From positions 1-64,000 of the IMG/VR virus record IMGVR_UViG_3300003690_003261: a stretch of 64,000 nt of DNA. One strand, written 5' to 3'. Of the stretch, positions 9,912-27,958 are shown in pieces (the stretch's first letter is position 1; each line of letters starts with the position of its first letter). The DNA is from a virus. A program made the position numbers and the translations under genes. The notes under the pieces were generated by a model that was not told where the DNA came from, made no database searches, and was given only the letters and a program-made list of their open reading frames with translations.

Positions 9912-10133
9912 TTATCTAAACAATTTCGCATCCTTTTTCCTTTGCAGCTTTTGTTGCTCTTGAATTGCTTTTTGGTGCTTGATTCTTTTTTTTACTGATG
10001 GTTTTATATAGTGGCTGGTTCTAGCTCTGTAAGTCTCCAAAATTCCTTCTCTCTTACACTTCTTAACAAATCGCCGAATAAGTCGTTCGGGGCTTTCCCC
10101 TCTTTTCAAGCTCACGCTTGTATTAATTGCCAT
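9912..10133 (-). CDS. rpsU: Ribosomal protein bS21 homologue
   Basis: A 73-residue, highly basic protein starting MAINTSVSLKRGESP. The features match bacterial bS21: length close to the E. coli protein (71 residues), an N-terminal beta segment, then ERLIRRFVKKCKREGILETY (the R-R-F-x-x-x-x-x-x-x-G-x-L core), then HYIKPSVKKRIKHQKA and a Lys/Arg/Gln-rich C-terminal helix. bS21 joins the 30S subunit near the anti-Shine-Dalgarno region and affects initiation. Phage copies are known from marine phages and may bias host ribosomes towards phage messages. The start is placed at 10133 rather than an upstream ATG (10169) because MAINTSV aligns with the family start and avoids overlap with the upstream gene. 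It lies within the head operon. Confidence 0.88.
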   Translation of the reverse strand: MAINTSVSLKRGESPERLIRRFVKKCKREGILETYRARTSHYIKPSVKKRIKHQKAIQEQQKLQRKKDAKLFR

Positions 10134-10140
10134 GATCGCT

Positions 10141-10590
10141 TTATTTACCTTTCTTTTCCATGTGAGCATTCCAGTGGTTGCCTACGGACCCAAAAAGATC
10201 CCGTATGTCAACTCCTGGATCACCGGGATTTTGGCCAGCCATAGGAGAAGACATTTGTGTTTCTCCCAGCGGACCCTGTGTCGGTGTGGTGCCTTCAAAC
10301 AAATTGACACCGTTGTATGCGCGAGACCCGATGGCGCTCATTAGTTTGTTCTTAGACTCTTTTAGCTTTGTGCTCTCTTCTCTAGTAAAAGCATTGCGCC
10401 TCATTCTTTCAAACTCGGGATCTACTTTTTCCTCGGCCCGAACAGGCGCAGGCGCAGAAGTCTGAGCCCCACTGATTCCGCGAGCCACCTCTGATATAAC
10501 TCCTGATAATATGCCCTCATCTAATATAATCTCTTTTACACATTCTTTGACTAGGGGCTTTAATATCTTTTTTAATTCTGCTTTTTTCAT
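10141..10590 (-). CDS. Head-region protein with N-terminal amphipathic Lys-rich helix
   Basis: A 149-residue protein coupled to the protease gene by TGATG at 10590. The N-terminus, MKKAELKKILKPLVKECVKE followed by IILDEGILSGVISEVARG, is a basic then hydrophobic helix that recalls the IIKEEL-tagged proteins at 24.6-26.5 kb. The remainder is polar: a Pro/Ala stretch, FERMRRNAFTREE, and a Gly/Pro-rich end containing RDLFGSVGNHWNAHMEKKGK. Sitting between the prohead protease and capsid-related genes, it could be a head-assembly or internal protein processed by the protease. No known domain is identified. Confidence 0.6.
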   Translation of the reverse strand: MKKAELKKILKPLVKECVKEIILDEGILSGVISEVARGISGAQTSAPAPVRAEEKVDPEFERMRRNAFTREESTKLKESKNKLMSAIGSRAYNGVNLFEGTTPTQGPLGETQMSSPMAGQNPGDPGVDIRDLFGSVGNHWNAHMEKKGK

Positions 10591-11189
10591 CACTCGCCAA
10601 TAATTTCATTTAATAAATTCATGATTTTATTTTTTTGTTCAACCTGCTCGTTCATTAAACGGTTTTCTGATAATGCCATAAATGCATTTGGTGTTGATGG
10701 TTCAGAAACGATATCAAAACAAATCAATTGAAAATCATCTTCTACAATTGTCTTCCCCATCTGCTCCTTTACCGAACCCATGCCGCGGGAAGAGATTCCG
10801 GTTTTAACCCCTGATTCAACGAGGGCCCTAAGAATTTGACCCGAGGGAGTATCAAGAACTTTAATTTTACCCATAACCGAAGGACCATCCATCCAAACCT
10901 CTGTGACCATGTGTGACACATTCACGAGGTTAATGATGGACGAATCCGGATGGTCCAACTCACCAAGGGCTCGGTTTTCACCTACAAGCTGAGCATACTT
11001 TTTCACCTCCCTCTCCATAATACTGCGAGGATACACTCGCCCGTTGCCATTCTGAACATCCGCTTCCTGCAACTTACCCGTAAGCATCATACCACCATTG
11101 CGAACAAAGGACTTCTCGACTTCCGTCAAAAGATCCTGACAGACACCACCTTCGCATAGTTCATAATATTCTCGGAGGAGCTGGGGCAT
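10590..11189 (-). CDS. Prohead core protease (T4 gp21-like, serine peptidase)
   Basis: A 199-residue protein with the conserved blocks of T4-type prohead proteases: QNGNGRVYPRSIMEREV (46-62), ALGELDHP with His80, VSHMVTEVWM, GVKTGISSRGMGSV with Ser133/Ser134, and FDIVSEPSTPNAFM. His80 and the Ser of SSRG correspond in spacing to the catalytic His85 and Ser140 known for T4 gp21. In T4 the enzyme sits inside the prohead and cuts scaffold, capsid and internal proteins after (Leu/Ile/Ala)-x-Glu before DNA is packaged. Its stop overlaps the start of the next gene. It is a key neighbour for judging which other proteins here may be packaged and processed. Confidence 0.9.
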   Translation of the reverse strand: MPQLLREYYELCEGGVCQDLLTEVEKSFVRNGGMMLTGKLQEADVQNGNGRVYPRSIMEREVKKYAQLVGENRALGELDHPDSSIINLVNVSHMVTEVWMDGPSVMGKIKVLDTPSGQILRALVESGVKTGISSRGMGSVKEQMGKTIVEDDFQLICFDIVSEPSTPNAFMALSENRLMNEQVEQKNKIMNLLNEIIGE

Positions 11190-11192
11190 TCT

Positions 11193-11519
11193 TTATTCCT
11201 CCGCGTTCTCTTCCAGGGCACCGCCGGGTCCAATATCGACTTCCGCCCCGGGAGCAGTTTGCCGAGCCAACTCCTGTGTGACGACCGAAATTTCATCCTC
11301 CGTAAGGCCCTCCGTAGCGCGTTCCAAAGCGCCAAGAAGCCAATCGAGTACACGGTCGACCCGTGATTCTGATTCTTCAGGAGCTGCTACAGGAACCGCA
11401 TCGGCTGTAGCAACAAGCCCGGGTGGGGGCTCTTCTTGTAATATCTCCTCCTCACGATTCGTTGTCTCGTGCAAGAAGTGTCTTGGATCTATTCTTTTTG
11501 TGTTCTTTCTGTGCGCCAT
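11193..11519 (-). CDS. Small acidic head-region protein with IDPRHFLHETT motif
   Basis: A 108-residue protein starting MAHRKNTKRIDPRHFLHETT, a basic N-terminus followed by a long acidic region rich in Glu, Ala and Pro and a probable helix (RVDRVLDWLLGALERATEGL). It lies just upstream of the prohead protease, so a scaffold-like or internal prohead role is plausible. The N-terminal K-x-IDPR-x-FL-x-ETT pattern is one I have seen at the start of small head-operon proteins of marine phages, but I know of no assigned function. Confidence 0.5.
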   Translation of the reverse strand: MAHRKNTKRIDPRHFLHETTNREEEILQEEPPPGLVATADAVPVAAPEESESRVDRVLDWLLGALERATEGLTEDEISVVTQELARQTAPGAEVDIGPGGALEENAEE

Positions 11520-12416: not shown

Positions 12417-13221
12417 GAGCCGCTAGCTCCTCAACCAATTCCTGTGTTTTTAAAATCTTGCTGAGATCTTCTGTCGTAAAATCCCGGTGGCGGAATCCTT
12501 CGAGGTATTTTACCACACCAGTAACTTTTTGTGAAATTGCAGTATCTGTGGCGTCTTCCGTAGATTCCTGAAGTGTCTCCTTAAGCCGAGACAATTCTTC
12601 GTTTAAATAGACTCGTAGCTCAAAGCCTTCGTCTGCAAAGCTTGTAATAAAATGATTTAGCAATTCTTTTTGTTCAATCATAAGAGTACCAAATTTCTTA
12701 TTAAACTTTTTTATAAAGGAATTATAAGTGAGAGTATCAATCGGTTGCATCGGTTTAGAAGGTGTATATTCCTCTGTGTGGCTCATCCTATCTACGATGG
12801 CCTGTTCAAACAAAACTTTCTTTTTAAGAGCAGTCTTAGAATTAAAAATTGCATTCACCGAAGCAATGGATTTAAAGTTCGGCACAAAGGTGGCCCAAGC
12901 TTCTTTGCCGAGTCCTTTATTTATTGCAGCAATAACACGAGACTGGGCATCAAAAATAATATTTTCGTCTAGGGAAGAATATGCCTCTTTTGTTTCAACC
13001 AAAAGACGCTCGGCCACCTTAGTTTGAATGCTGGTGGTTTCCAGTAACACTTTATAAAGATCTAATTCTTTTGCGAGAATACGGCCATGGCTAAAAAATT
13101 CCTTCAGTAGTACCAGTACGGTGTTCTTCCGCATAGAATCCTTATCTACAATAGCTTTAGTCAGCTCTCGAGTGAGAGTTTCATAAATAAAGGCTGTATT
13201 ACGTTTCTTGTTGTGCTTCAT
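12409..13221 (-). CDS. Unknown head-operon protein following portal, 270 residues
   Basis: A mainly helical protein starting MKHNKKRNTAFIYETLTREL, with further helices (VLVLLKEFFSHGRILAKELD; FVPNFKSIASVNAIFNSKTA) and a C-terminal region GVVKYLEGFRHRDFTTEDLS. Its start overlaps the portal gene by 23 bases. No membrane segments or known catalytic motifs are seen. Position directly after the portal makes an internal core or portal-assembly partner a reasonable guess, but nothing in the sequence proves it. Confidence 0.55.
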   Translation of the reverse strand: MKHNKKRNTAFIYETLTRELTKAIVDKDSMRKNTVLVLLKEFFSHGRILAKELDLYKVLLETTSIQTKVAERLLVETKEAYSSLDENIIFDAQSRVIAAINKGLGKEAWATFVPNFKSIASVNAIFNSKTALKKKVLFEQAIVDRMSHTEEYTPSKPMQPIDTLTYNSFIKKFNKKFGTLMIEQKELLNHFITSFADEGFELRVYLNEELSRLKETLQESTEDATDTAISQKVTGVVKYLEGFRHRDFTTEDLSKILKTQELVEELAAHD

Positions 13222-15172
13222 TTTTGTCGGCCTCGTGCTTCTCCATCTGTTCTACAAGCTTCCTAACTCTCACGGTGTTTTCAATCATACGTACTTCATT
13301 CCTGTTATAAATAGATTGCTTCTGTTCTTCCAGACCAACTAGTGACTTAAAGTCAAAACTCCCCACTCCTAAATCTGATACATTTATCTGGCCCGGTGTT
13401 TTGGCTCGATCAGTAGCAAGTCTAGGTGCCTCCGGTAAGGCGGTGTTTTTTATATGGCGACTCGTTGGACCAGAGCGGCCTCTGATACGCCGATCGCCGC
13501 CGCGTTTCCGTACAGTTTGATAAGAACTCTTTTCATAATTTCGTACATCACCGTCTTCCTGAATATCCTCTCGCCGCGACGGGGCAGTTAGAAGAGCAGA
13601 TTCTTCTCCGCCTTCGGGGGCGATCGCATCCAGATCCTCGCCTCCAAGTTCTTCGTCGCCCATCTCACCTCCTAAGTCTCCGAGCCCCTCGTCGCCCCCT
13701 AGAGCGTCTTCGGTACCCTGGTCAACAACAGCCTCTAAGGCTTGCTGATACTTACGATCATAGAAAGACTCTCGCTGATTACGCAAGAACTCGTCATCGG
13801 ACAATCCAAGAATATTATGACCAATCCAGCGCTTACTAAAGGTACCTTCAGGAACGGCGTTCGCCACATCAAACTTTGTACGCATGTACTCTAGCTGTTG
13901 TAGCTCTGCCAAGCGAGAAGGATTGTTCAAGGATAAATCAAAGCTAATCAGGTCATTCCCTCTAAACCCAAGAGTATACAAATGAACTACAGCAATCTTT
14001 TCCATCTCAGAAGTCACAGATCGCTGCAATCTTTGGATCGTCCGCGCGAAACGAATGTCCTTCTGTGCTAAGGTAGTTTTATCTTCGTCGGCGCCCTCAA
14101 GATTGGTGAGATAGGCTTGAGGAATCTTGATGGCGGAAAACAGCTTGTCACGCATATATTTTACGTCGTCAATATCATCAAGAGATTTGGCACCAGGTAG
14201 AGAAACGATGTCTGAGCCGACCCCTCCTCGCATTGGAATGAAATAGTCTTCTTCTAAAGATAAGGGGTTATAGCGCAGATCCACTCGACCCGTTTCGGAA
14301 TCCACCAGCTGGTTGCGCTTCATCTCTGTTTTAACTTTTTCCATATATTGTGGAACATCTTGTGGCGGAATGTTTCCTACGTCAATTTTGAAAACGCGGC
14401 GCTCGGGGGCGCGAACAACACGATATGCTAGCATCGCATCTTCTAGTAGAGTAAGCTGGCGCCAAATGCGGCGCGCAGGATCTAAAACAGAAGTTCCATA
14501 GGGCGCGTGTCGATCATTGCCAAGGATACGGAAATGGGCAACCTGCCAATTTTCAAAGGTTAGGCCGCCGCCATTCCACTGGTATTGGATATAATTAGGA
14601 TTTGTTGGGTCTTGGCCTTCGAGTCTCTCTACCTCGTTGTTGGGGAGTCCCACCACAGAGGTGACGCCTAACTTTTCGTCCACATCTAAATAAAGAAAGA
14701 AATCCCCATACTTGCACATGGACCGCGCCCAGCCGAAACTATTAAATTCGATATTAAGTACGTCATAAAAAAGAGCTTCCAGAATAGTTTTAATCTCAAG
14801 ATTCATGCACGACACATTTAACAACTTATCGTATTCATTGGAGGTGGTCATCTCGTCAGCATAAATATCAAGAGCCGATGCAAGTTCGGGCATATATTCC
14901 ATCTGCTCAAAGTCAACATAACGCTCCGCACGATTCTGTGCGCGGAAAGCCGCAGACGTCATCATGTTAAAGTTCTGCGACATATTAATGTCGGAGCGCT
15001 TAAACTCTTGACCGCTTAATGAACGGAAGCGATATCGGTATTTATCTAGATCGCCGCGTTTTTCCTGGCGCGCGATTTGAGCCCGATAATTTATAATCGG
15101 TCCGGATAAAAGCCTGGTGAGCCTCTTAAATAACGGTGCGGTAGTATTTCTAGGGTTCTTCTGATTGGCCAT
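13199..15172 (-). CDS. Portal vertex protein (gp20-like)
   Basis: A 657-residue protein with the T4-type portal layout. It has RYRFRSLSGQEFKRSDI near residue 45, YMPELASALDIYADEMTTSN (about 95-115), then VVRAPERRVFKIDVGNIPPQ, and the conserved stretch RDKLFSAIKIPQAYLTNLEG. The long acidic C-terminal extension (DALGGDEGLGDLGGEMGDEE) is less conserved. Portal rings of twelve subunits occupy one capsid vertex, start prohead assembly, and form the channel for DNA packaging by the terminase encoded just upstream. Gene order terminase-portal-protease-scaffold-capsid is as in T4-like phages. Confidence 0.93.
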   Translation of the reverse strand: MANQKNPRNTTAPLFKRLTRLLSGPIINYRAQIARQEKRGDLDKYRYRFRSLSGQEFKRSDINMSQNFNMMTSAAFRAQNRAERYVDFEQMEYMPELASALDIYADEMTTSNEYDKLLNVSCMNLEIKTILEALFYDVLNIEFNSFGWARSMCKYGDFFLYLDVDEKLGVTSVVGLPNNEVERLEGQDPTNPNYIQYQWNGGGLTFENWQVAHFRILGNDRHAPYGTSVLDPARRIWRQLTLLEDAMLAYRVVRAPERRVFKIDVGNIPPQDVPQYMEKVKTEMKRNQLVDSETGRVDLRYNPLSLEEDYFIPMRGGVGSDIVSLPGAKSLDDIDDVKYMRDKLFSAIKIPQAYLTNLEGADEDKTTLAQKDIRFARTIQRLQRSVTSEMEKIAVVHLYTLGFRGNDLISFDLSLNNPSRLAELQQLEYMRTKFDVANAVPEGTFSKRWIGHNILGLSDDEFLRNQRESFYDRKYQQALEAVVDQGTEDALGGDEGLGDLGGEMGDEELGGEDLDAIAPEGGEESALLTAPSRREDIQEDGDVRNYEKSSYQTVRKRGGDRRIRGRSGPTSRHIKNTALPEAPRLATDRAKTPGQINVSDLGVGSFDFKSLVGLEEQKQSIYNRNEVRMIENTVRVRKLVEQMEKHEADKNEAQQET

Positions 15173-15175
15173 GTT

Positions 15176-16762
15176 TTATCCTTTTATCAACGCCATATAT
15201 TCTTGAGTATATACTTCTGCTTGTCCTGTACGTTGATCTTCTTTCGTCATTTTATGACCCCGCATTCCCGGTATAGTTGTTGATATGTTAGTTGTAGAAG
15301 TTGAAATGGAAGATAAAAATTGTTTACTATACTCTATATCTTTGTGGCTTTCTACAATCACTGTATCTCTCACCCAACACCCAATAGCAAATGACATTAC
15401 CAAATCATCATTATAGCTACGCATCGCCTGGGGCCTTCCTGAATGCCAAATAAATGTTTTCATTTCAGAAAGCAGCCGATTAGAGTTAATCTTAATTAGT
15501 TTGTTTCTCATAAACTCTTCCATCTTCGCCACAATCAAAGGTCGTGTTTTAGAAGATGTTGTAAATCCAGGGATTACGTTTGACTGCCACTGGGCCGCGA
15601 TTGGATCGACGTATTGATGTTCACCTTTGGTTGAATGATATAGGTTAGGATACCCTTTATCTAAAAGTTTTTTAAGTACTGCATAACCTATATTATTATT
15701 TTCTATAACTAACATGGGATTTCCGTACTCGGAAGCCACATTATATAAAATATCTGCAAAGTCATCAGGGGTTGGTTTTCCTACATACTCAGCCACAACT
15801 TCCATTGTGGCAAGTTCAAATATATGAAAAGCACTATTATCTTTGCCATCTCCCCGCGCAACATCTGCAACAATTAAATAAGGTTTTTCCCCTTCGTGGC
15901 GTTTCCAAATCCAATAGTTTCTATCAAAACCAGTTCGGTATTCTGGGGTTGTAGTCCTCTCTAAATACCACTGAATGTCGTCGGGGTGTATGACGGTTTC
16001 GCCGGACACATTAAAGTTACACTCAAGCTCCTGTGCAATCTGGCGCTTCGACATATTCATGGTTTCTTTCTCAAACCACGTCTTGTCTCTGTCGGGGTGA
16101 ACATCCCATAACAATGTCGTCATATAAAAATCGTTGGTGCCGGCTTCAGCTTCGACACAACTTTGATGGAACCAGTTTCCTACGCCGTTCGGAGTTGATA
16201 GAGCGATGCAGCGGCCGCCAGTCGATAAAGTAGGATAAAGAGCTGTCCACAACTCTCCTAACTTTTCAACGTGAGCGGCCTCATCAACAACGAGTAAGGA
16301 TAGAGCTTCTGAACGTCCAGCATCAGCTGAAGTGGAAGAACTCTTAATCTGTGAACCATTAGAAAGTTCAAAAGAGGTTCTGTTATCAACTACAATTTCG
16401 GATATGCGCATCCAGCCAGGCAAATGTTTGATAATTGCTTTTACTTTTTTCACTAAATTGGTGGCAGTTTGCAATTTGGTGGCCACAACAAGAATGTTCT
16501 TATCGCGATGAAAAAGCATAAGCCACGCGATATAGGCTGCAGTAATTGTAGATATGCCAAGTTGTCGTGCCTTAAGAATAATATTAAAGCGATAATCGCT
16601 AAAATCTTTTAATAGATCTTTCTGATAATCATACGCATTAAACGGTATGAGCCCACGTTGTGGATGGGAAATCCGACAATAACTTGTCGTAAAATGAACT
16701 GGGTCTTTGCCCGCACGGACAATTTCTTTTAATATCTCTTGCTTGGTTAGAGCGTTCCCCAT
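15176..16762 (-). CDS. Terminase large subunit (gp17-like)
   Basis: A 528-residue packaging motor. The ATPase half has an adenine-binding DYQKDLL (about 44), a variant Walker A ARQLGIST (about 65), Walker B LLVVDEAAH (about 157) and the coupling motif CIALSTPNG (about 185). The nuclease half has IVADVARGDGKDNSAFHIFE (first Asp, about 296), MLVIENNNIGYAVL (Glu) and SYNDDLVMSFAIG (last Asp pair, about 449), the RNase-H-like acidic set. It cuts concatemeric DNA and pumps it through the portal. The ATG at 16762 has a weak ribosome site. It lies between a small unknown gene, where a small terminase could be expected, and the portal. Confidence 0.95.
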   Translation of the reverse strand: MGNALTKQEILKEIVRAGKDPVHFTTSYCRISHPQRGLIPFNAYDYQKDLLKDFSDYRFNIILKARQLGISTITAAYIAWLMLFHRDKNILVVATKLQTATNLVKKVKAIIKHLPGWMRISEIVVDNRTSFELSNGSQIKSSSTSADAGRSEALSLLVVDEAAHVEKLGELWTALYPTLSTGGRCIALSTPNGVGNWFHQSCVEAEAGTNDFYMTTLLWDVHPDRDKTWFEKETMNMSKRQIAQELECNFNVSGETVIHPDDIQWYLERTTTPEYRTGFDRNYWIWKRHEGEKPYLIVADVARGDGKDNSAFHIFELATMEVVAEYVGKPTPDDFADILYNVASEYGNPMLVIENNNIGYAVLKKLLDKGYPNLYHSTKGEHQYVDPIAAQWQSNVIPGFTTSSKTRPLIVAKMEEFMRNKLIKINSNRLLSEMKTFIWHSGRPQAMRSYNDDLVMSFAIGCWVRDTVIVESHKDIEYSKQFLSSISTSTTNISTTIPGMRGHKMTKEDQRTGQAEVYTQEYMALIKG

Positions 16763-21411: not shown

Positions 21412-24400
21412 CTATTGGGCCACGCGAGCATAATCTCCTGATTTATCAATTGAAATTTCAACGTCAACAACATCTTTCAAAGAATCTAAATGAGAAATCA
21501 AAATAACTGTTTTAAAATACATCTTGATTAACTGAAGAATTCGGACAAACCCTTCCATATTTTCAGCATCAAGAGCAGTGCCAGGCTCATCAAGAATAAA
21601 TATATTTCCCTTGGGCAGAGAGGAAACAGATAACAAAGCCAAACGAATTGCCATGGCTGACACGGTCTTTTCGGCTCCCGATCCCATTTCGATTGGGCGG
21701 GGCTCATGCTTGGGGTGCTTAATCAAGATGTCCAGTTTTCGACCATCTTCTTGAAAGAAGACCTCAAAGTCAACAATATTAGAAATCACTTTGGCAATTT
21801 CTTCATTTATGACGGGCAATCTCTTTTTAATAATATCGTAGGCAATACCATTCGAATGAGTGCACCGCATAAATAAATCGTAAGCGGTGTACTCCTGTCG
21901 AATATCGAGAAGTTCCGATTTCTTTTCATTTAAATCGTCAACCTTCTGTTCTAAAGAACCAATCAAACGATGATTTTGATTTATTTCTTCTTCACCATTC
22001 ACAAGAGATTCTTTTAATAAATCAGTTTTTTGCTGCACTTCGTTTCGCGATGTAATAAGCTTCTCTATATTCTGAATTAGTTCTTTCTTTTCCTCATACA
22101 AAGCAATTTTTTCATTGGTCTCGGTTAACTCATTCTTATAATTCTTGATTTTTGCATATAGTTTTTCGATCGAAACTTTATTATCTCTCTTTTCTATCTC
22201 AAGATTATTCTTTTGAATTATAATACCATTATATTTATCAATTAAATCAACGAGTTCCATAGAATTCACAGAGATAATTTTTGTCTTATAATCTTTGGCT
22301 TTTTCAATCTCATCAATAATCTCTACTTCTAACGAGGGCAGCTCCACTGCGGCCAAATGTGCATCACGGATGAATTGACACATGGGAAATTGATCCCCGC
22401 ACGGCACCTCATCCAGCAAGCGCAATTTCTTGCTCATTCCTTTATAATCATTATCAAGCAATCTGGCTGCGGTTATGGTATCATCATAGTTCTTCTTGAA
22501 AGTGTCGTATTCTTTCTTTTGCTCTAGCAAATCTTCAACATCAATCGTCGTAAGAAAATCATCATATTCTTTTAACTGTTCCTCGTATACACTATTTTCT
22601 TCTTTAAGTTCCACCACATTTATATTTGTGTGCTCAACTTTGTTTTGTGTCTCCGTGCGACTTTCCACCAACATCTTAATATCAAGGCGCTCCGCCGGAA
22701 TGGAATCAATTTGTTGAGTTAGTGACATATATTCTTCTTCGGCAATCCCCATTTCTTGTCGCAGTGAGCCGCATGCAACTATTTCTTGCTGTAGTTGTTT
22801 CCGAGCTTCGTCTCTATGAAGTTCGGCAATCGCTATATCCTCGTCATAGTTGATCTCTCCGACGCGACGAAGAAGGGCTTTTAAGTCGGCGCAGTCCTCT
22901 TGGGCCAACTTAAACTTCCGCTCAAAGATGTCTAAATCCAGGAACTTAGCTAAGATTTCTTTCCGGCGAGTCGACCCCTCTTTAATAAACGCCAAACTAT
23001 CGAGTTGGCTGGCCATAGAAGTCAAAAGGAAGTCTTCTACCGTACCAAATCTCTTGCGAATATGGGCGTCCGTCTCATTCCTGGTGGTACCGTTAAGACT
23101 TACTGTCTCTCCTGAAACGGGATCAACACCACTAAAATCTAAATTGGTCCTCGCTTCATTGGTCACAACACCTTTGAGCTTCTTTACATATTTTTCAGAA
23201 GTTCTTTCAATTGTGTATACTTTGTCTCCGACTTGTACTTCAATGAGGCCGCGGCAATCTTTTTTATTCTGGTTAATAATATTGTAATTTTTGCGTTCGT
23301 TCTTTGATGTCGTGTTGAACATCGTGTATAACAGGCCATCGATAATACTCGACTTTCCTGAAAAGTTTTTTCCAAAAATGCCCACAATCCCATTTAAATT
23401 GGAAAAGTCGACGCTGTTATCAGCCCCATAATTAAATAAATTATCCCATTCAAACCTGTTTAGATTCCAATTAATATTCCTAGCTATTTCCTCAGTCTCT
23501 TCAATTTGCGAATTATACTTTCGATTCAGATTAAATACTCGTTGTAGGGTGTCTTCGCTGGGCGTGTAGTCCGTAAGGTACTCGCGAATAAGGTTTTCCT
23601 GAACGCCCTTGTCCCTTAGATTCTCGACCTTAAATCCTGCACCAATCTCAACAGTGCCGCGCTCGCCGGCGGCGCGATTGAGAAAAGTGATACTCTCGGG
23701 ATTAAACCTATGCTTGGCCACCTCAACTGCCTTACGCATCACATCAAGCGGCAAGTTGTTATTACTTACTAAGCGCAAACGTGCGCCGTCAGGAACCTTA
23801 GTCCCGCGGGGCATTCGTCCCTTTGGTGTAAGTTCTATTGTTACGAATGGCTTTGGGTTGAGCAATACATGGTGCCTCACTTCAAATGTATTTTTATCTT
23901 CGATCTCCCAAATCAAGAATCCTTTATCATTGGTCTCGCCATGATTCTGTTGAACTGTGGAGCCAGCGTATCTTACGCGACCTTCGGTATCCAAGATCTG
24001 GTTTGTCTTGTGAATATCCCCCAACAAAGCATAATCGTGGCCCCCAAAGATTCCCACGTCATGGTCACCCCGGGTCATCACCCAACCGGTGTCGGTCTTC
24101 ACACCAGACACAGATCCGTGATAAAGGGCGATGTTGATTCTATCAGGGTCACTCGGCATCACCCAGTTCTCTTCGTCAAAAACCGAGAGCACGTTGAAGG
24201 CGATGTGCGGCCCTACAAGGACTTCTCCTGCGTTCTTAAGCAGATGTAGGTCCGGTAGGTTCAAAGCCTTCACAATGGGCGACAGGGCGTCCTGACGGGT
24301 ACTATTGCGTAAGTTGCCGTCGTGGTTGCCCAAGATGATGTAGGTGGGTGCGATGGAGGCAAGATTTGCGAAGAAGTCGGAGCAAAGCTCAACGAACTCT

Positions 24401-24564
24401 GGTGAAATTTGGGTCTTGGTATGGGCGATGTCGCCGCAATGTACGATGTAGTCTACGTTTTCTTTTCGTAGTGTTTCGTATAGTTGCTCGAAAACAATCT
24501 TATACTCGTAGTGAAACTTTAAATTCTTTATGTGGGTGTCCGCAATATGCGCTATTTTGTACAC
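21412..24564 (-). CDS. Fused recombination nuclease-ATPase (gp47-gp46 / SbcD-SbcC type)
   Basis: One 1050-residue chain joins two normally separate proteins. Residues 1-340 form an Mre11/SbcD-type phosphodiesterase: HIADTHIKN, VHCGDIAHTKT, IILGNHDGN, YHGSV, GGHDYALLGDIHK. The rest is a Rad50/SbcC-type ATPase: Walker A FGKNFSGKSS (about 397), signature MGSGAEKT (about 960), Walker B IFILDEPGTALDAE (about 991) and switch His ISHLD. Between lies a coiled coil with a possible Cys hook (PCGDQFPMC, about 721). In T4 the gp46/47 complex resects DNA ends for recombination-dependent replication and helps degrade host DNA. The start is GTG 24564 with AGGGG 8 bases upstream, behind its own promoter. Confidence 0.92.
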   Translation of the reverse strand: MYKIAHIADTHIKNLKFHYEYKIVFEQLYETLRKENVDYIVHCGDIAHTKTQISPEFVELCSDFFANLASIAPTYIILGNHDGNLRNSTRQDALSPIVKALNLPDLHLLKNAGEVLVGPHIAFNVLSVFDEENWVMPSDPDRINIALYHGSVSGVKTDTGWVMTRGDHDVGIFGGHDYALLGDIHKTNQILDTEGRVRYAGSTVQQNHGETNDKGFLIWEIEDKNTFEVRHHVLLNPKPFVTIELTPKGRMPRGTKVPDGARLRLVSNNNLPLDVMRKAVEVAKHRFNPESITFLNRAAGERGTVEIGAGFKVENLRDKGVQENLIREYLTDYTPSEDTLQRVFNLNRKYNSQIEETEEIARNINWNLNRFEWDNLFNYGADNSVDFSNLNGIVGIFGKNFSGKSSIIDGLLYTMFNTTSKNERKNYNIINQNKKDCRGLIEVQVGDKVYTIERTSEKYVKKLKGVVTNEARTNLDFSGVDPVSGETVSLNGTTRNETDAHIRKRFGTVEDFLLTSMASQLDSLAFIKEGSTRRKEILAKFLDLDIFERKFKLAQEDCADLKALLRRVGEINYDEDIAIAELHRDEARKQLQQEIVACGSLRQEMGIAEEEYMSLTQQIDSIPAERLDIKMLVESRTETQNKVEHTNINVVELKEENSVYEEQLKEYDDFLTTIDVEDLLEQKKEYDTFKKNYDDTITAARLLDNDYKGMSKKLRLLDEVPCGDQFPMCQFIRDAHLAAVELPSLEVEIIDEIEKAKDYKTKIISVNSMELVDLIDKYNGIIIQKNNLEIEKRDNKVSIEKLYAKIKNYKNELTETNEKIALYEEKKELIQNIEKLITSRNEVQQKTDLLKESLVNGEEEINQNHRLIGSLEQKVDDLNEKKSELLDIRQEYTAYDLFMRCTHSNGIAYDIIKKRLPVINEEIAKVISNIVDFEVFFQEDGRKLDILIKHPKHEPRPIEMGSGAEKTVSAMAIRLALLSVSSLPKGNIFILDEPGTALDAENMEGFVRILQLIKMYFKTVILISHLDSLKDVVDVEISIDKSGDYARVAQ

Positions 24565-24626: not shown

Positions 24627-24917
24627 TTAATATTCTTCTTGCCAATGGCCGGCGTCCATGGCGGCCTGATCTAAATCCATTTGACGGTCAACCTCGGACT
24701 GGGGCGCCATATCAAATTGGCTCTCAAGGTTTTCTCTGAACTCTTCAATCTTTAAAAAGATCGTTGTGAGAAATTCCTCCTCATCTGCAAATTCATTGAT
24801 TACGTTCCGGATACGCTCCATTTCATGATCGATATTCCCCATGACTCCTCCGCGCTCATTTAAAGAAGAAAGCTCTTCCTTGATAATCTGTCGTAGTTTT
24901 GTTTTTGAGATCTTCAT
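24627..24917 (-). CDS. IIKEEL-tagged protein 5 (acidic, helical)
   Basis: A 96-residue protein starting with the tag MKISKTKLRQIIKEEL. The body is acidic and helical (DHEMERIRNVINEFADEEEF, FRENLESQFDMAPQSEVDRQ), with no membrane segment. It starts with ATG in a one-base TAATG overlap with the preceding gene and is the last of five tandem genes sharing the tag. The tag contains Ile-Lys-Glu, which fits the (Leu/Ile)-x-Glu cutting rule of T4-type prohead protease. The body has no recognised domain. Unlike genes 2 and 3 it has no basic tail, so it may have a different role in the group. Confidence 0.7.
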   Translation of the reverse strand: MKISKTKLRQIIKEELSSLNERGGVMGNIDHEMERIRNVINEFADEEEFLTTIFLKIEEFRENLESQFDMAPQSEVDRQMDLDQAAMDAGHWQEEY

Positions 24918-25354
24918 TAGTCTTGGTCCTTTTTAATATCTCTTTTGGACTGGGCGCGTTCGGCCTTATTGTAGGCTTTCTTCTGCGGCTTTTTGCTTTT
25001 GCCTCGTTTACTTTTAGAGTAAGTAACTTCGGAACGATGGCCGCTTACTTTGTTTTCTTCCATTCCTGAGCTACCGTACATTGGGTTCGCTTTCAAAGAT
25101 CCGATGAACCTGGCCATATCCGCAGTCATCTCTATGCCAAGATCGGCTGCGAGGGCATCGAGGGAATCGTACCTATCGACTACAGCACGGGTCAATATTC
25201 GCGAAAGCAGTTGCTCTTCGCGAGTGCCTAGGCGGCCGGCCATAGGATCTTCCTCTTCTTCTGGCTCTGGGAAGCCTTCTATATCGGCTCCCACACTCAC
25301 GGTCTCAAGTTCTTCCTTGATAATCTGTCGTAGTTTTGATTTTGAAATCTTCAC
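24917..25354 (-). CDS. IIKEEL-tagged protein 4 with very basic C-terminal tail
   Basis: A 145-residue protein starting MKISKSKLRQIIKEEL (GTG start at 25354, in a TAGTG overlap). After the tag come an acidic linker (FPEPEEEEDP), a globular helical part (LLSRILTRAVVDRYDSLDAL; ADMARFIGSLKANPM), and a basic tail of about 40 residues rich in Lys (SKSKRGKSKKPQKKAYNKAE). An N-terminal tag plus a DNA-binding-like tail is the design of packaged internal head proteins in T4. That function is inferred, not shown. No known fold is recognised for the middle region. Confidence 0.7.
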   Translation of the reverse strand: MKISKSKLRQIIKEELETVSVGADIEGFPEPEEEEDPMAGRLGTREEQLLSRILTRAVVDRYDSLDALAADLGIEMTADMARFIGSLKANPMYGSSGMEENKVSGHRSEVTYSKSKRGKSKKPQKKAYNKAERAQSKRDIKKDQD

Positions 25355-26019
25355 TATGCTTTACCTTTTTTGATGCGCTGCTTTTCGACGGAGCGCCTTT
25401 TTTTAGAAGCAGCTTTTTTCCTGCCTTTTGAACTCCACTGATGCGCTGAGGGATCGAGCTTCTCTGCTTCTTTGCTTGGAGGACTGCCTCCGGATTGAGA
25501 TGATTCTTCTAGTTCTTCACTCCGGGCGCGCATAGGAGTCAACATACCATCGAAGGGTGCTGGATCTCCTTTCTTTAGGGCCTTCTCACCACCAGTCGTT
25601 TGCTGTCGAAGTTCACCACCCAACTTGTTCACTTTCGTTCTAAAGCCTTCTTCTTCTCTTGATATGATCAAGTCTGGTTGCTTGACATAAATCCTCATAA
25701 GTTCTTTGACCATGTTGTTTAGTGTGTCGCTGGGTATTTCTGCGAGGGCGCGCACATCTGCTGGGAGACTCTTAAGATCCGCCGGCTTGCCCAGAGAAGA
25801 CCGATCAACCTTAAGCACTGTCAAAAGGCCGACGGCGAGTTTTGACAGGCCTGCCACATTCATGATAGCAAGAAAAGCTCGCAAACGACTGTGGTTGTCG
25901 CGAGTGATTTTTTGAATGCTTTGCTGTATACTTGCTGCCCCGGGGGATGCCTCCAAAAGAGACACCCTTTCCAGCTCTTCCTTGATAATCTCTTTAAGTC
26001 TTTGTTTGGTGATTTTCAC
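25354..26019 (-). CDS. IIKEEL-tagged protein 3 with PAPFDG motif and basic tail
   Basis: A 221-residue protein, the largest of the tagged set, starting MKITKQRLKEIIKEEL (GTG start overlapping the upstream stop as GTGA). The middle is helical (LRAFLAIMNVAGLSKLAVGL, DTLNNMVKELMRIYV). At about 155-170 it carries KKGDPAPFDGMLTPM, a motif also present in the spanin-like protein at 19568-20056. The C-terminus is strongly basic (SSKGRKKAASKKRRSVEKQR). No catalytic motif is seen. The tag and basic tail fit an internal, protease-processed head protein; the PAPFDG part hints instead at an envelope link. Confidence 0.7.
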   Translation of the reverse strand: MKITKQRLKEIIKEELERVSLLEASPGAASIQQSIQKITRDNHSRLRAFLAIMNVAGLSKLAVGLLTVLKVDRSSLGKPADLKSLPADVRALAEIPSDTLNNMVKELMRIYVKQPDLIISREEEGFRTKVNKLGGELRQQTTGGEKALKKGDPAPFDGMLTPMRARSEELEESSQSGGSPPSKEAEKLDPSAHQWSSKGRKKAASKKRRSVEKQRIKKGKA

Positions 26020-26300
26020 TGTCTGTTCTCAAATTGTCCAAGAGCAATAACATAACGCTCTTTCAAATCATCAAGTTTGTCCTGAAGTATATTAGCGTGG
26101 GTACTAAGATGAACAAACTCGCCGCCGTCATGCTCTTCCACCAAACGTGCGATGGCGCTCTGAAAATCCAGGAGCCTCTTGTCAAGTTTCCGCAGCGCTA
26201 TTTGGCCGCGGGCGGCTAGCTCATCGGCGTCCATCGAGAACGTATCTCCTTCAAGCTCTTCCTTGATAATCTCTTTTAGTCTTTGTTTAGTGATTTTCAC
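26016..26300 (-). CDS. IIKEEL-tagged protein 2 (helical)
   Basis: A 94-residue protein starting MKITKQRLKEIIKEEL, with the same first 16 residues as protein 3. The body is a probable helical pair (RGQIALRKLDKRLLDFQSAI; HANILQDKLDDLKERYVIAL) and could form a small coiled-coil oligomer. GTG start; both ends overlap neighbouring genes by four bases. The body shares nothing obvious with the other tagged proteins, so the tag is a detachable module. No function is recognised. Confidence 0.7.
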   Translation of the reverse strand: MKITKQRLKEIIKEELEGDTFSMDADELAARGQIALRKLDKRLLDFQSAIARLVEEHDGGEFVHLSTHANILQDKLDDLKERYVIALGQFENRQ

Positions 26301-26512
26301 TTTAGTTCTCCTCGCTCTTCCATTGAGTGGGCGATTGCAACAGCCTGATCTTTAGACTTGCCTTCTTTGTCCACAAGATAAGAAATCTTCCGTGAAATTC
26401 TTTCGTCTTTGGTTTTTTGAGTCTCTTTTAATTCCTGCGTCCCGCGGTGAAACTCTCGGTAAAAGAGTTCCTCTTTGATAATTTGTTTTAAACGGGTGGC
26501 TGAGATTTTCAC
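26297..26512 (-). CDS. IIKEEL-tagged protein 1 with EGKSxDQAVAIA motif
   Basis: A 71-residue protein starting MKISATRLKQIIKEEL. Its C-terminal half, KISYLVDKEGKSKDQAVAIA followed by HSMEERGEL, matches a short helical module I know from many small phage and bacterial proteins, in which an EGKS turn precedes a helix with QAxAIAxSM. Its function is unknown. GTG start at 26512, just after the primase gene, with which it is probably co-transcribed. It opens the block of five tagged genes. Confidence 0.7.
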   Translation of the reverse strand: MKISATRLKQIIKEELFYREFHRGTQELKETQKTKDERISRKISYLVDKEGKSKDQAVAIAHSMEERGELK

Positions 26513-26520
26513 TGGGGCTC

Positions 26521-27456
26521 CTACACAGACATTGCAAGCGTCAACAATAAATAGTTGTCCGGAGTGATAAGGGTCGCATTTTCAAGGCATTTCTGGAATT
26601 GTTCCTTGGCCATAGACCCAACGTCTTCATTATCGCCAATATCAACCTTCCAAACTTCTATGTCAAAATCAAGTAAGATCTTGATAACTTCTAGTTCCTT
26701 TTTCTTTGCGTCGGGATCCAATGCAACATATACTCCTGCGTCTTCTTTAACGATCTTACGAAGTAAAATCGAGTGTTGATTCAGAGTAGAACCGAGGATA
26801 GGGACCGCATTACGGCCAGCAATAATCGCATCAAAAATCCCTTCGACCAGAACAATGTCTGAACTCCAATCCACAAACAAATCGTTAAATATAATGTTCT
26901 TGCTTGCTGGAGGATTTTTATACTTTGGGTAATAGGCGCGATCAAACGATCTAGAAATGAAGTAGTTTAAATCACCTTCGTCATCAAACGACGGAATAAT
27001 GACTCTACCTTCATATTCTCCTTCGCTACAATAGCCCATCTTCCACCAAACAATATCTTGTTTTCCGATGTTTCGTTTTCTTAGATAGTTCATTGCAGCG
27101 AACCCGGTAGGGGGCATCTCTTTATTCGCTAAAGAAACGAAACCCTCGGGCATCTCAAGTATTTGTTTTTCTTCTATTTTCTTGGTAAATAAATCTTCGA
27201 GTTTCTCGAAATCAATTTCCGATGTAAAATCCCTCCACTGAGATTTATCGTGGTTTGTGCCGAAGCGTCGAACGACACGGTAGAGGTTCTTACCCCGAGT
27301 ATCGCATACCCAGCACTTATAATAGCCTTTGTCGAGATTTACGGAAAACTTGCGCTTGTGGTGGTCGCAGTAGGGGCACTTAAAAAGAAACTCGTTGTTG
27401 GTCCGATACGAGGACCCCAGCACACTAGTCAGTATTTTGAGTTTCTTCTCTTTCAC
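26521..27456 (-). CDS. DNA primase (DnaG/gp61 type)
   Basis: A 311-residue primase. The N-terminal zinc finger is CPYC (27-30) plus CWVC (48-51) within FKCPYCDHHKRKFSVNLDKG, the CHC2-like DNA-binding module. The Toprim core follows: GRVIIPSFDDEGDLNYFISR, IVLVEGIFDAIIAG (catalytic Glu) and VYVALDPDA (metal-binding Asp-x-Asp). It makes RNA primers for lagging-strand synthesis together with a helicase, which is not in this window. I place the start at GTG 27456 (KEKKLKILTSVLGSSYR), since the family begins there; a TTG at 27477 only extends further into the resolvase gene. It overlaps the upstream resolvase by 32 bases. Confidence 0.9.
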   Translation of the reverse strand: MKEKKLKILTSVLGSSYRTNNEFLFKCPYCDHHKRKFSVNLDKGYYKCWVCDTRGKNLYRVVRRFGTNHDKSQWRDFTSEIDFEKLEDLFTKKIEEKQILEMPEGFVSLANKEMPPTGFAAMNYLRKRNIGKQDIVWWKMGYCSEGEYEGRVIIPSFDDEGDLNYFISRSFDRAYYPKYKNPPASKNIIFNDLFVDWSSDIVLVEGIFDAIIAGRNAVPILGSTLNQHSILLRKIVKEDAGVYVALDPDAKKKELEVIKILLDFDIEVWKVDIGDNEDVGSMAKEQFQKCLENATLITPDNYLLLTLAMSV

Positions 27457-27958
27457 GAATCCAGCCTGCCTTTGCAATCACATAACTATCCGACCGATCA
27501 TTATAGCCGGCCTTTGGATTTCCATGTTTTGTATATTGTACATCAAAACCAGGTACGCTGTCAACTACAAATTGAAGTGTAACTGCTTTTGCTTTCTGTC
27601 CCTTGGGGACTTTGATACCGCATGCCTTGCGGGCTGATGTGGCGGCCAAATAGTGAGGATCTTGCCCAAACATATTATAGCACAGCCAAGAAACAATGCC
27701 ATTGATTTTTGATAAAAGCGAAAGGGTTTGTGCCGACGAGAAACCAGATCGAAAGGATTGTAGAGACTGTTCAATATAAACTTGTTCTATCTCATATCGT
27801 TCGTTGATGTCTTCAAGGCGCGCGCTAATGATTCGTATTTTTTTAAAAAAATTCTTTTCTTTTCGTAGATCAACGTGATCACAGGCAAGTATGTGGCCCT
27901 CATAATCTAATATTGTGTATCCAGTTATGCTAGTGGATATATCTAATCCTAAAATCAT
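27425..27958 (-). CDS. RuvC-like Holliday junction resolvase
   Basis: A 177-residue RNase-H-fold nuclease. ILGLDISTSITGYTILD gives the first catalytic Asp (residue 5), VYIEQSLQSF the Glu, and NDRSDSYVIAKAG the C-terminal Asp pair, the RuvC pattern. The segment TSARKACGIKVPKGQKAKAV supplies the basic DNA-binding region. In phages with branched replication intermediates such enzymes cut junctions before packaging, the role of endonuclease VII in T4, but from a different family. The ATG at 27958 overlaps the stop of a 38-residue ORF (TAATG), and its own end overlaps primase, so the three are coupled. Confidence 0.88.
   Translation of the reverse strand: MILGLDISTSITGYTILDYEGHILACDHVDLRKEKNFFKKIRIISARLEDINERYEIEQVYIEQSLQSFRSGFSSAQTLSLLSKINGIVSWLCYNMFGQDPHYLAATSARKACGIKVPKGQKAKAVTLQFVVDSVPGFDVQYTKHGNPKAGYNDRSDSYVIAKAGWIREREETQNTD

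Follow-up and report, generated by a model that had tools for sequence, protein, structure and literature searches.

Five adjacent genes in the 64,000-nucleotide stretch analysed here (the window), which belongs to a viral record of 90,173 bases, raise the question of why proteins with unrelated bodies should all begin with the same short peptide. A precedent is found in the internal proteins of phage T4 and their capsid-targeting sequence (CTS), reportedly the work of Mullaney and Black. An earlier note on this DNA had read the peptide in that light, as a capsid-targeting signal linked to a gp21-type protease on a modular set of head proteins. Our analyses suggest that the shared N-terminus is probably a capsid-targeting, scaffold-joining propeptide that carries fast-changing cargo, analogous to the internal proteins of T4. 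The features concerned are collected in Table 1.

Table 1. Tagged genes, head genes and island borders in the window (positions in the window; the arrow, here and in the text, marks a known or putative cut)
Feature	Position	Strand	Remarks
Tagged gene 1	26297..26512	-	71 aa, GTG start; tag MKISATRLKQIIKEEL + body RISRKISYLVDKEGKSKDQAVAIAHSMEERGELK
Tagged gene 2	26016..26300	-	94 aa, GTG start, 4-nt overlap
Tagged gene 3	25354..26019	-	221 aa, GTG start, 4-nt overlap, basic tail
Tagged gene 4	24917..25354	-	145 aa, GTG start, basic tail
Tagged gene 5	24627..24917	-	96 aa, ATG start
Tag of gene 1	26465..26512	-	16 codons
Tag of gene 2	26253..26300	-	DNA comparison of five tags
Tag of gene 3	25972..26019	-	DNA 94% identical to gene 2 tag
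Tag of gene 4	25307..25354	-	DNA comparison of five tags
Tag of gene 5	24870..24917	-	DNA 92% identical to gene 4 tag
gp21-type prohead protease (Peptidase_S77)	10590..11189	-	PF03420 E=1.1e-32; phrog_207 E=4e-56
gp22 (scaffold) slot gene	10141..10593	-	Tag-1-like N-terminus MMKKAELKKILKPLVKECVKEIILDE↓G; homologous slot in 80 S77 loci
gp68 slot gene	11193..11519	-	N-terminus ...KRIDPRHFLHE↓T (Φ-Φ-x-E, Φ being a hydrophobic residue)
T4-type portal protein (gp20)	13199..15172	-	PF07230 E=1.7e-76
Large terminase, T4 type	15176..16762	-	PF03237 E=7.6e-10
SbcD-SbcC (gp47-gp46-like) nuclease, one island border	21412..24564	-	Metallophos + AAA_23 domains
DNA primase, other island border	26521..27477	-	phrog_47 E=2e-44

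The five open reading frames form an overlapping series on the minus strand, with the primase on one side and gp46/47 on the other, and all five products start with MKI[ST]xx[RK]L[RK][QE]IIKEEL (tag 1). No further ORF with this motif was found in the whole 90,173-base record, including the 26 kb beyond the window. The DNA identity among the five genes is 62–94% over the tag and 21–38% over the next 48 nt, showing that the similarity ends sharply at the tag, and comparison of the five bodies with one another revealed no similarity. The ORFs, the DNA identities and the body comparison thus bear out the earlier description of five adjacent genes with one N-terminal tag and unrelated bodies. The translational coupling claimed for them is plausible, as the overlap between adjacent tagged genes is 1 or 4 nt (the start codon is GTG in four of them and ATG in one), and the Lys/Arg-rich tails noted on two products are indeed present, on two of the five only (24917–25354 and 25354–26019). 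None of the five bodies has a recognised function, and a known counter-defence function was found for no body; the body of 26297–26512 has a weak match to PHROG 2423. Relatives of 26016–26300 are two in number, in the corresponding island of loci L514 and L530, and none was found for 24627–24917 among the loci compared. In the predicted structure of 24917–25354, an N-terminal helix stands apart from a small, confident helical core, with a disordered linker between the two, and the model has no fold match in the PDB. A removable tag would be expected to give just such an arrangement.

Tag 1 is both widespread and specific to viruses. Its exact degenerate pattern matched more than 119 stretches in IMG/VR, and 257 Gb of prokaryotic genomes yielded only two loci, both on metagenome-bin contigs with a viral look. 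Given that the reversed pattern had no match in any of the 36 tag-carrying records, and that 257 Gb held two matches, the tag is not a product of chance. Several tags per record are common, with up to eight in a record and 15 in tandem in one contig. In a sampled set, 273 tagged proteins fell into 215 body clusters, so that one short N-terminal sequence is common to proteins with unrelated bodies. Comparison between tags of the same record gave a pS of 0.60 and a pN of 0.12 (pN/pS 0.19). The amino acids are kept although synonymous sites are nearly saturated, which indicates selection on the peptide; a DNA-level or translation signal was rejected on the same grounds. Conservation at tag positions 1–15 is due in part to the search pattern, and residues 17 onward are free of this effect. 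The tag was absent from named phages in pattern scans of four records only, and tblastn searches of cultured phages with bare tags returned nothing, the short Lys/Glu-rich queries having probably been masked. In the open-access literature no description of the tag was found, and 'IIKEEL' matched only unrelated peptides.

Small C-terminal modules recur among the tagged proteins and are shuffled among those of L004, L015, L120, L122, L172, L176 and other loci; examples are RKLSKGEKKEKERVVKGMKKSKxDFKKRYGDDAESVMYATATKIAKDKK and SEKQRRxMCAxKDxDxRPExLSxxEAEEMC. Recognisable folds are rare among tagged bodies; one is that of the tag-1 protein at L056 4786–5505, a P-loop kinase-like AAA_33 domain (E=2e-13).

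The gp21-type protease that the earlier note had recognised at 10590–11189 is confirmed by its Peptidase_S77 match (113.6 bits, against a PF03420 cut-off of 27); its gene belongs to a T4-like block of head genes that includes the terminase, and sits downstream of the portal gene in transcription order; gp23 was not found on the 90,173-base record. The proposed survey of the tag for linkage to such proteases gave a clear association: S77 is present in 36 of 49 tag records of at least 12 kb and in 3 of 34 random IMG/VR records, drawn by an arbitrary 15-mer (p=2e-9). Divided by size, and with the window excluded, the tag records have S77 in 27 of 35 cases at 28 kb or more and in 9 of 14 at 12–28 kb, the random records in 1/16 and 2/18. 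All eight large tag records without S77 likewise lack the T4 portal and gp23, and three of them share baseplate or replication genes with the window, which suggests that they are fragments of the window's lineage. The protease thus accompanies the tag and is missing only where the record is a fragment without head genes. Many tags without S77 are also seen in the records G003 and G019 and in contig C25 of a Halobacteriovorax bin. These, which might suggest that the tag occurs in phages lacking the protease, represent one group of partial sequences without recognised head genes. Contig C13 of the same bin carries TerL, portal, S77, MCP, primase and gp46/47 genes of the T4-like type; C25 and C13 may therefore be two parts of one phage.

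On a Halobacteriovorax-bin contig (PBIO01000025.1; L365 386–7769), 15 tag-1 genes with differing bodies stand in tandem, and the T4-like head genes, S77 among them, are on another contig of that bin. Two related virus-like contigs with many tag-1 genes bear a YeaH(DUF444)–SpoVR–PrkA set (L346 10833–15329, in IMG/VR record G019, and G085:C25), which is usually a bacterial stress operon.

The S77 linkage is partly phylogenetic, as all genes of a T4-like genome are linked to S77. Linkage alone may therefore reflect lineage history, and position beside S77 is the more specific evidence. Across 80 S77 loci, 23 of 152 S77-adjoining ORFs are tagged, against 31 of 1042 other ORFs (p=2e-8), and Φ-Φ-x-E occurs within 30 residues in 54 of 62 distinct gp22-slot N-termini, compared with a 29% share among the other ORFs (p=5e-20), both p-values being optimistic because the loci are related and the simple ORF calling leaves spurious ORFs in the background. 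The genes flanking S77, at the positions of gp22 and gp68, bear the tag about six times as commonly as other genes. The window's own gp22-slot protein starts with MKKAELKKILKPLVKECVKEIILDE↓G, and a domain of 25354–26019 recurs in the tagged gp22-slot protein that adjoins S77 in L228 (E=1.9e-6). At the level of sequence, then, gp22-slot proteins bear an N-terminus of the tag type.

No phage of the window's clade was found among cultured phages, the nearest being Microcystis phage Mel-JY01 and Flavobacterium phage immuto (portal identity 43% and 37%). In immuto, two families of shared N-termini, MENFDLKKFLVE and MKKSQLRQIIKEAL, were found without a preset pattern. Members adjoin S77, primase and terminase, and both types of N-terminus occur next to S77 and primase. 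The neighbours of its S77 gene read MENNFDIHKWQAKFLKE↓S downstream and HFIAE↓A upstream. Immuto thus offers a practical test system.

The gp22-slot proteins of L204, L207, L230 and L237 have a common C-terminal end, LxRMKVLAGVK, and a similar RMQxLAGIITE is found close to the N-terminus of two immuto proteins. A gene for ribosomal protein bS21 (9912–10169, minus strand; PF01165 E=2e-13) lies within the head gene cluster of the window, and Mel-JY01 has a bS21 gene at the corresponding place.

T4 gp21 cuts after L/I-x-E, and the T4 CTS depends on residues 4 and 7 for targeting and on residues 8 and 10 for processing (PMC9026906). The IIKE of the tag fits this specificity, and the earlier note had placed the cleavage there. 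The site that stands out statistically, however, is a second Φ-x-E further on. A second [LIVMF]xE ending at residues 19–26 is present in 167 of 260 tagged proteins (64%), against 53±6 (20%) after shuffling; as Φ-x-E↓[G/A/S] it lies around residue 21–23, 5–9 residues past the first site. Glu occurs at +2 from a hydrophobic residue at several distances: the probability of Glu 19 given a hydrophobic residue 17 is 0.64 versus 0.04, and that of Glu 22 given a hydrophobic residue 20 is 0.58 versus 0.09 (p=4e-17). The P1' residue is G/A/S in 41% versus 18% elsewhere (p=3e-10), and the conserved P3 residue is L/I/V/M/F. The MCP propeptide ends in ELLRE↓A or ELLRE↓Q in the tag phages and in QLISE↓A or QIVSE↓A in their cultured relatives. 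Two of the window's five tagged proteins have the second site, as SLNE↓R in 24627–24917 (N-terminus IIKEELSSLNE↓R) and as LLE↓A in 25354–26019 (IIKEEL...LLE↓A); the other three have the IKE site only, and the E-L after it departs from the usual P1'. Judged from these patterns, the second, covarying site matches the specificity of gp21 more closely than does a cut after IKE by itself. The cut would probably fall after the second site where this is present and otherwise after IKE, and IKE↓EL is a possible site. The Gly after the last helical turn could alternatively be a helix cap. The idea of a merely amphipathic helix is weakened by the covariation of the +2 Glu with the hydrophobic residue wherever that residue is placed.

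These site statistics also bear on the possibility that the tag is a core-joining helix that stays uncut, which would make the tagged proteins minor scaffold or structural proteins and not injected cargo. The tagged N-termini of gp22- and gp68-slot proteins, the E-L in place of A/G/S after IKE and the lack of a second Φ-x-E in some tagged proteins would all agree with this. We nevertheless consider it unlikely, in view of the covarying Φ-x-E with its preference for G/A/S after Glu, the similar end of the MCP propeptide, and bodies far more variable than structural parts would allow.

Further insight comes from a second tag, MKxLxENWRx[FY]LxE (tag 2), first seen as MKxLIENWRxYLxE on a tag-1 MAG contig. 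It is as widespread as tag 1, and many loci carry both. Tag 2 has the same length and register as tag 1, with hydrophobic residues at 8, 11 and 12 and Glu at 14, and ends in [FY]LxE, as the T4 CTS does. For tag 2 alone, the presence of S77 in fragments (11/39 versus 1/16) is not significant (p=0.15), while all eight tag-2 records of at least 150 kb have S77. Among 50 primase relatives, the island between primase and gp46/47 is hypervariable, with 0–7 genes per genome, and the four most distant relatives have no island. Tag 1 is found on 99 of the 138 island ORFs and tag 2 on 11, and several others have slightly divergent tags. The bodies of L561 and L533 share 86% identity over 176 aa and those of L538/L541 and L542/L543 72–74%, and in both comparisons the tags differ; in the L561/L533 alignment, SFIDE of tag 1 stands opposite KFVNE of tag 2. 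The window itself has two genes whose families bear either tag, 24917–25354 with 39 relatives and 26297–26512 with 13. The two tags therefore replace each other on homologous bodies in one island.

A GIY-YIG homing endonuclease-like protein, judged by its sequence, is encoded inside the island at L535 8895–9578 and is a possible driver of island turnover. The T4 late promoter TATAAATA is absent upstream of the window's island on the coding strand. The motif ATAAATAG occurs eight times in 1–64000, always on the plus strand, and nearly all genes are on the minus strand; four copies precede gene starts by 3–35 nt, one ahead of the tagged island. In its coding-strand form, CTATTTAT, it is possibly a promoter or other signal.

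The exchange of tags bears in turn on the main alternative of the earlier note, a membrane-binding helix. An amphipathic helix of this kind would anchor the expressed proteins at the host inner membrane, where they might serve superinfection exclusion or takeover. The tag is a Lys-rich amphipathic sequence, hydrophobic at 3, 8, 11, 12 and 16, and T4 proheads also assemble on the membrane. However, a membrane helix would not be expected to have nearly invariant Glu at 14 and 15, a Glu always at +2 from a hydrophobic residue, enrichment beside S77 and on gp22-slot genes, or exchange with a Trp-rich tag of equal length and FLxE end; it explains less than capsid targeting and is quite improbable. 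Hardly any credence can be given to recruitment to another assembly (replisome, RNA polymerase or phage replication compartment) with the head-gene link as lineage history, since the location of the window's island within the replication block, from primase to gp46/47, would fit, but the S77-side enrichment, the gp22-slot N-termini and the protease-like site would be left unexplained, and further tagged clusters are found in other places, such as next to terminase in immuto.

The capsid-targeting reading, in contrast, draws on the tag itself, its S77 linkage and its position beside S77, the MCP likeness, the Φ-x-E site statistics, the tag exchange and the selection at the protein level, all of which are observed. 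The T4 internal proteins IPI, IPII and IPIII carry a CTS of the MKTYQEFIAE↓A type and form a diverse defence set in which only the CTS is conserved (PMC9026906, PMC3012670), and it has been suggested that T4-like phages in general use the CTS for loading a variety of proteins (PMC9026906). As in T4, a short N-terminal address is here attached to unrelated, fast-changing, often basic proteins; the tag, like the CTS, ends in hydrophobic-hydrophobic-x-Glu, and a gp21-type protease is encoded in the genome. An L/I-x-E gp21 site is found, as a motif, at the end of both tags. Compared with the T4 CTS, the tag is longer (14–22 aa) and is built on a constant core, MKITKxxLxxIIKEEL or MKxLxENWRxFLxE, and unlike the T4 internal proteins, the tagged proteins number in the hundreds, with up to 15 in tandem and two swappable tags. 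No Pfam or PHROG match indicates homology to IPI, IPII, IPIII or the CTS, the resemblance being one of pattern, and we therefore class the system as one that works like the T4 internal proteins and not as a member of their family. The slots around S77, with their Φ-Φ-x-E N-termini, recall T4 gp22, gp67 and gp68. In T4, where gp22 begins MLKEQLIAE and gp24 MAKINELLRE, scaffold and internal-protein N-termini are not obviously one family, whereas here a gp22-slot protein and cargo can share the tag. In the giant phages phiKZ and SPN3US, a gp21 relative cuts the N-terminal propeptides of ejected head proteins after x-x-Glu; these propeptides are mostly longer than 100 residues and are cut at S/A-x-E (PMC5694885), unlike the tag with its 14–23 residues and L/I-x-E. 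What is new is the tag, its scale, the N-terminus common with gp22-slot proteins, the two exchangeable tags and the island.

In the mechanism that we propose, an amphipathic helix of about 14–16 residues, MKΦxxxxΦxxΦΦxE, usually followed 5–9 residues on by Φ-x-E↓G/A/S, would join the cargo to the prohead scaffolding core, the proteins of which (gp22 and gp67/68 positions) bear like N-termini. The S77 protease would then cut after Glu and free the cargo within the head, among the DNA, for delivery at infection. The body is the variable part, and hot spots, here the primase–gp46/47 island, would be where tagged genes come, go and change tags. By analogy with T4, the tagged proteins would bind the core, be cleaved, packaged and injected, and act in counter-defence or takeover (PMC3012670, PMC9391042); the injected, DNA-associated set acting on the host that the earlier note envisaged would likewise be a candidate role. 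We put forward, more tentatively and as a possibility that we do not favour outright, that the tag duplicates the N-terminal helix of the scaffold itself; cargo would enter the head by like-with-like co-assembly with the scaffold, and the product of any gene gaining a tag of about 16 codons would be packaged. Were this the case, marine T4-like phages would possess an open-ended, tag-readable set of injected effectors, with hundreds of unknown families and at least two interchangeable tags.

Should the tag serve as a packaging address, the proteins loaded into the head, and perhaps injected, by an uncultured marine phage could be recognised from sequence pattern alone, and compact new tags would become available for protein loading into T4-like heads. 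The tagged proteins would be likely counter-defence or takeover proteins of the first minutes of infection, nearly all from unknown families, and the three-protein internal set of T4 would be a single instance of a modular scheme of far larger scope.
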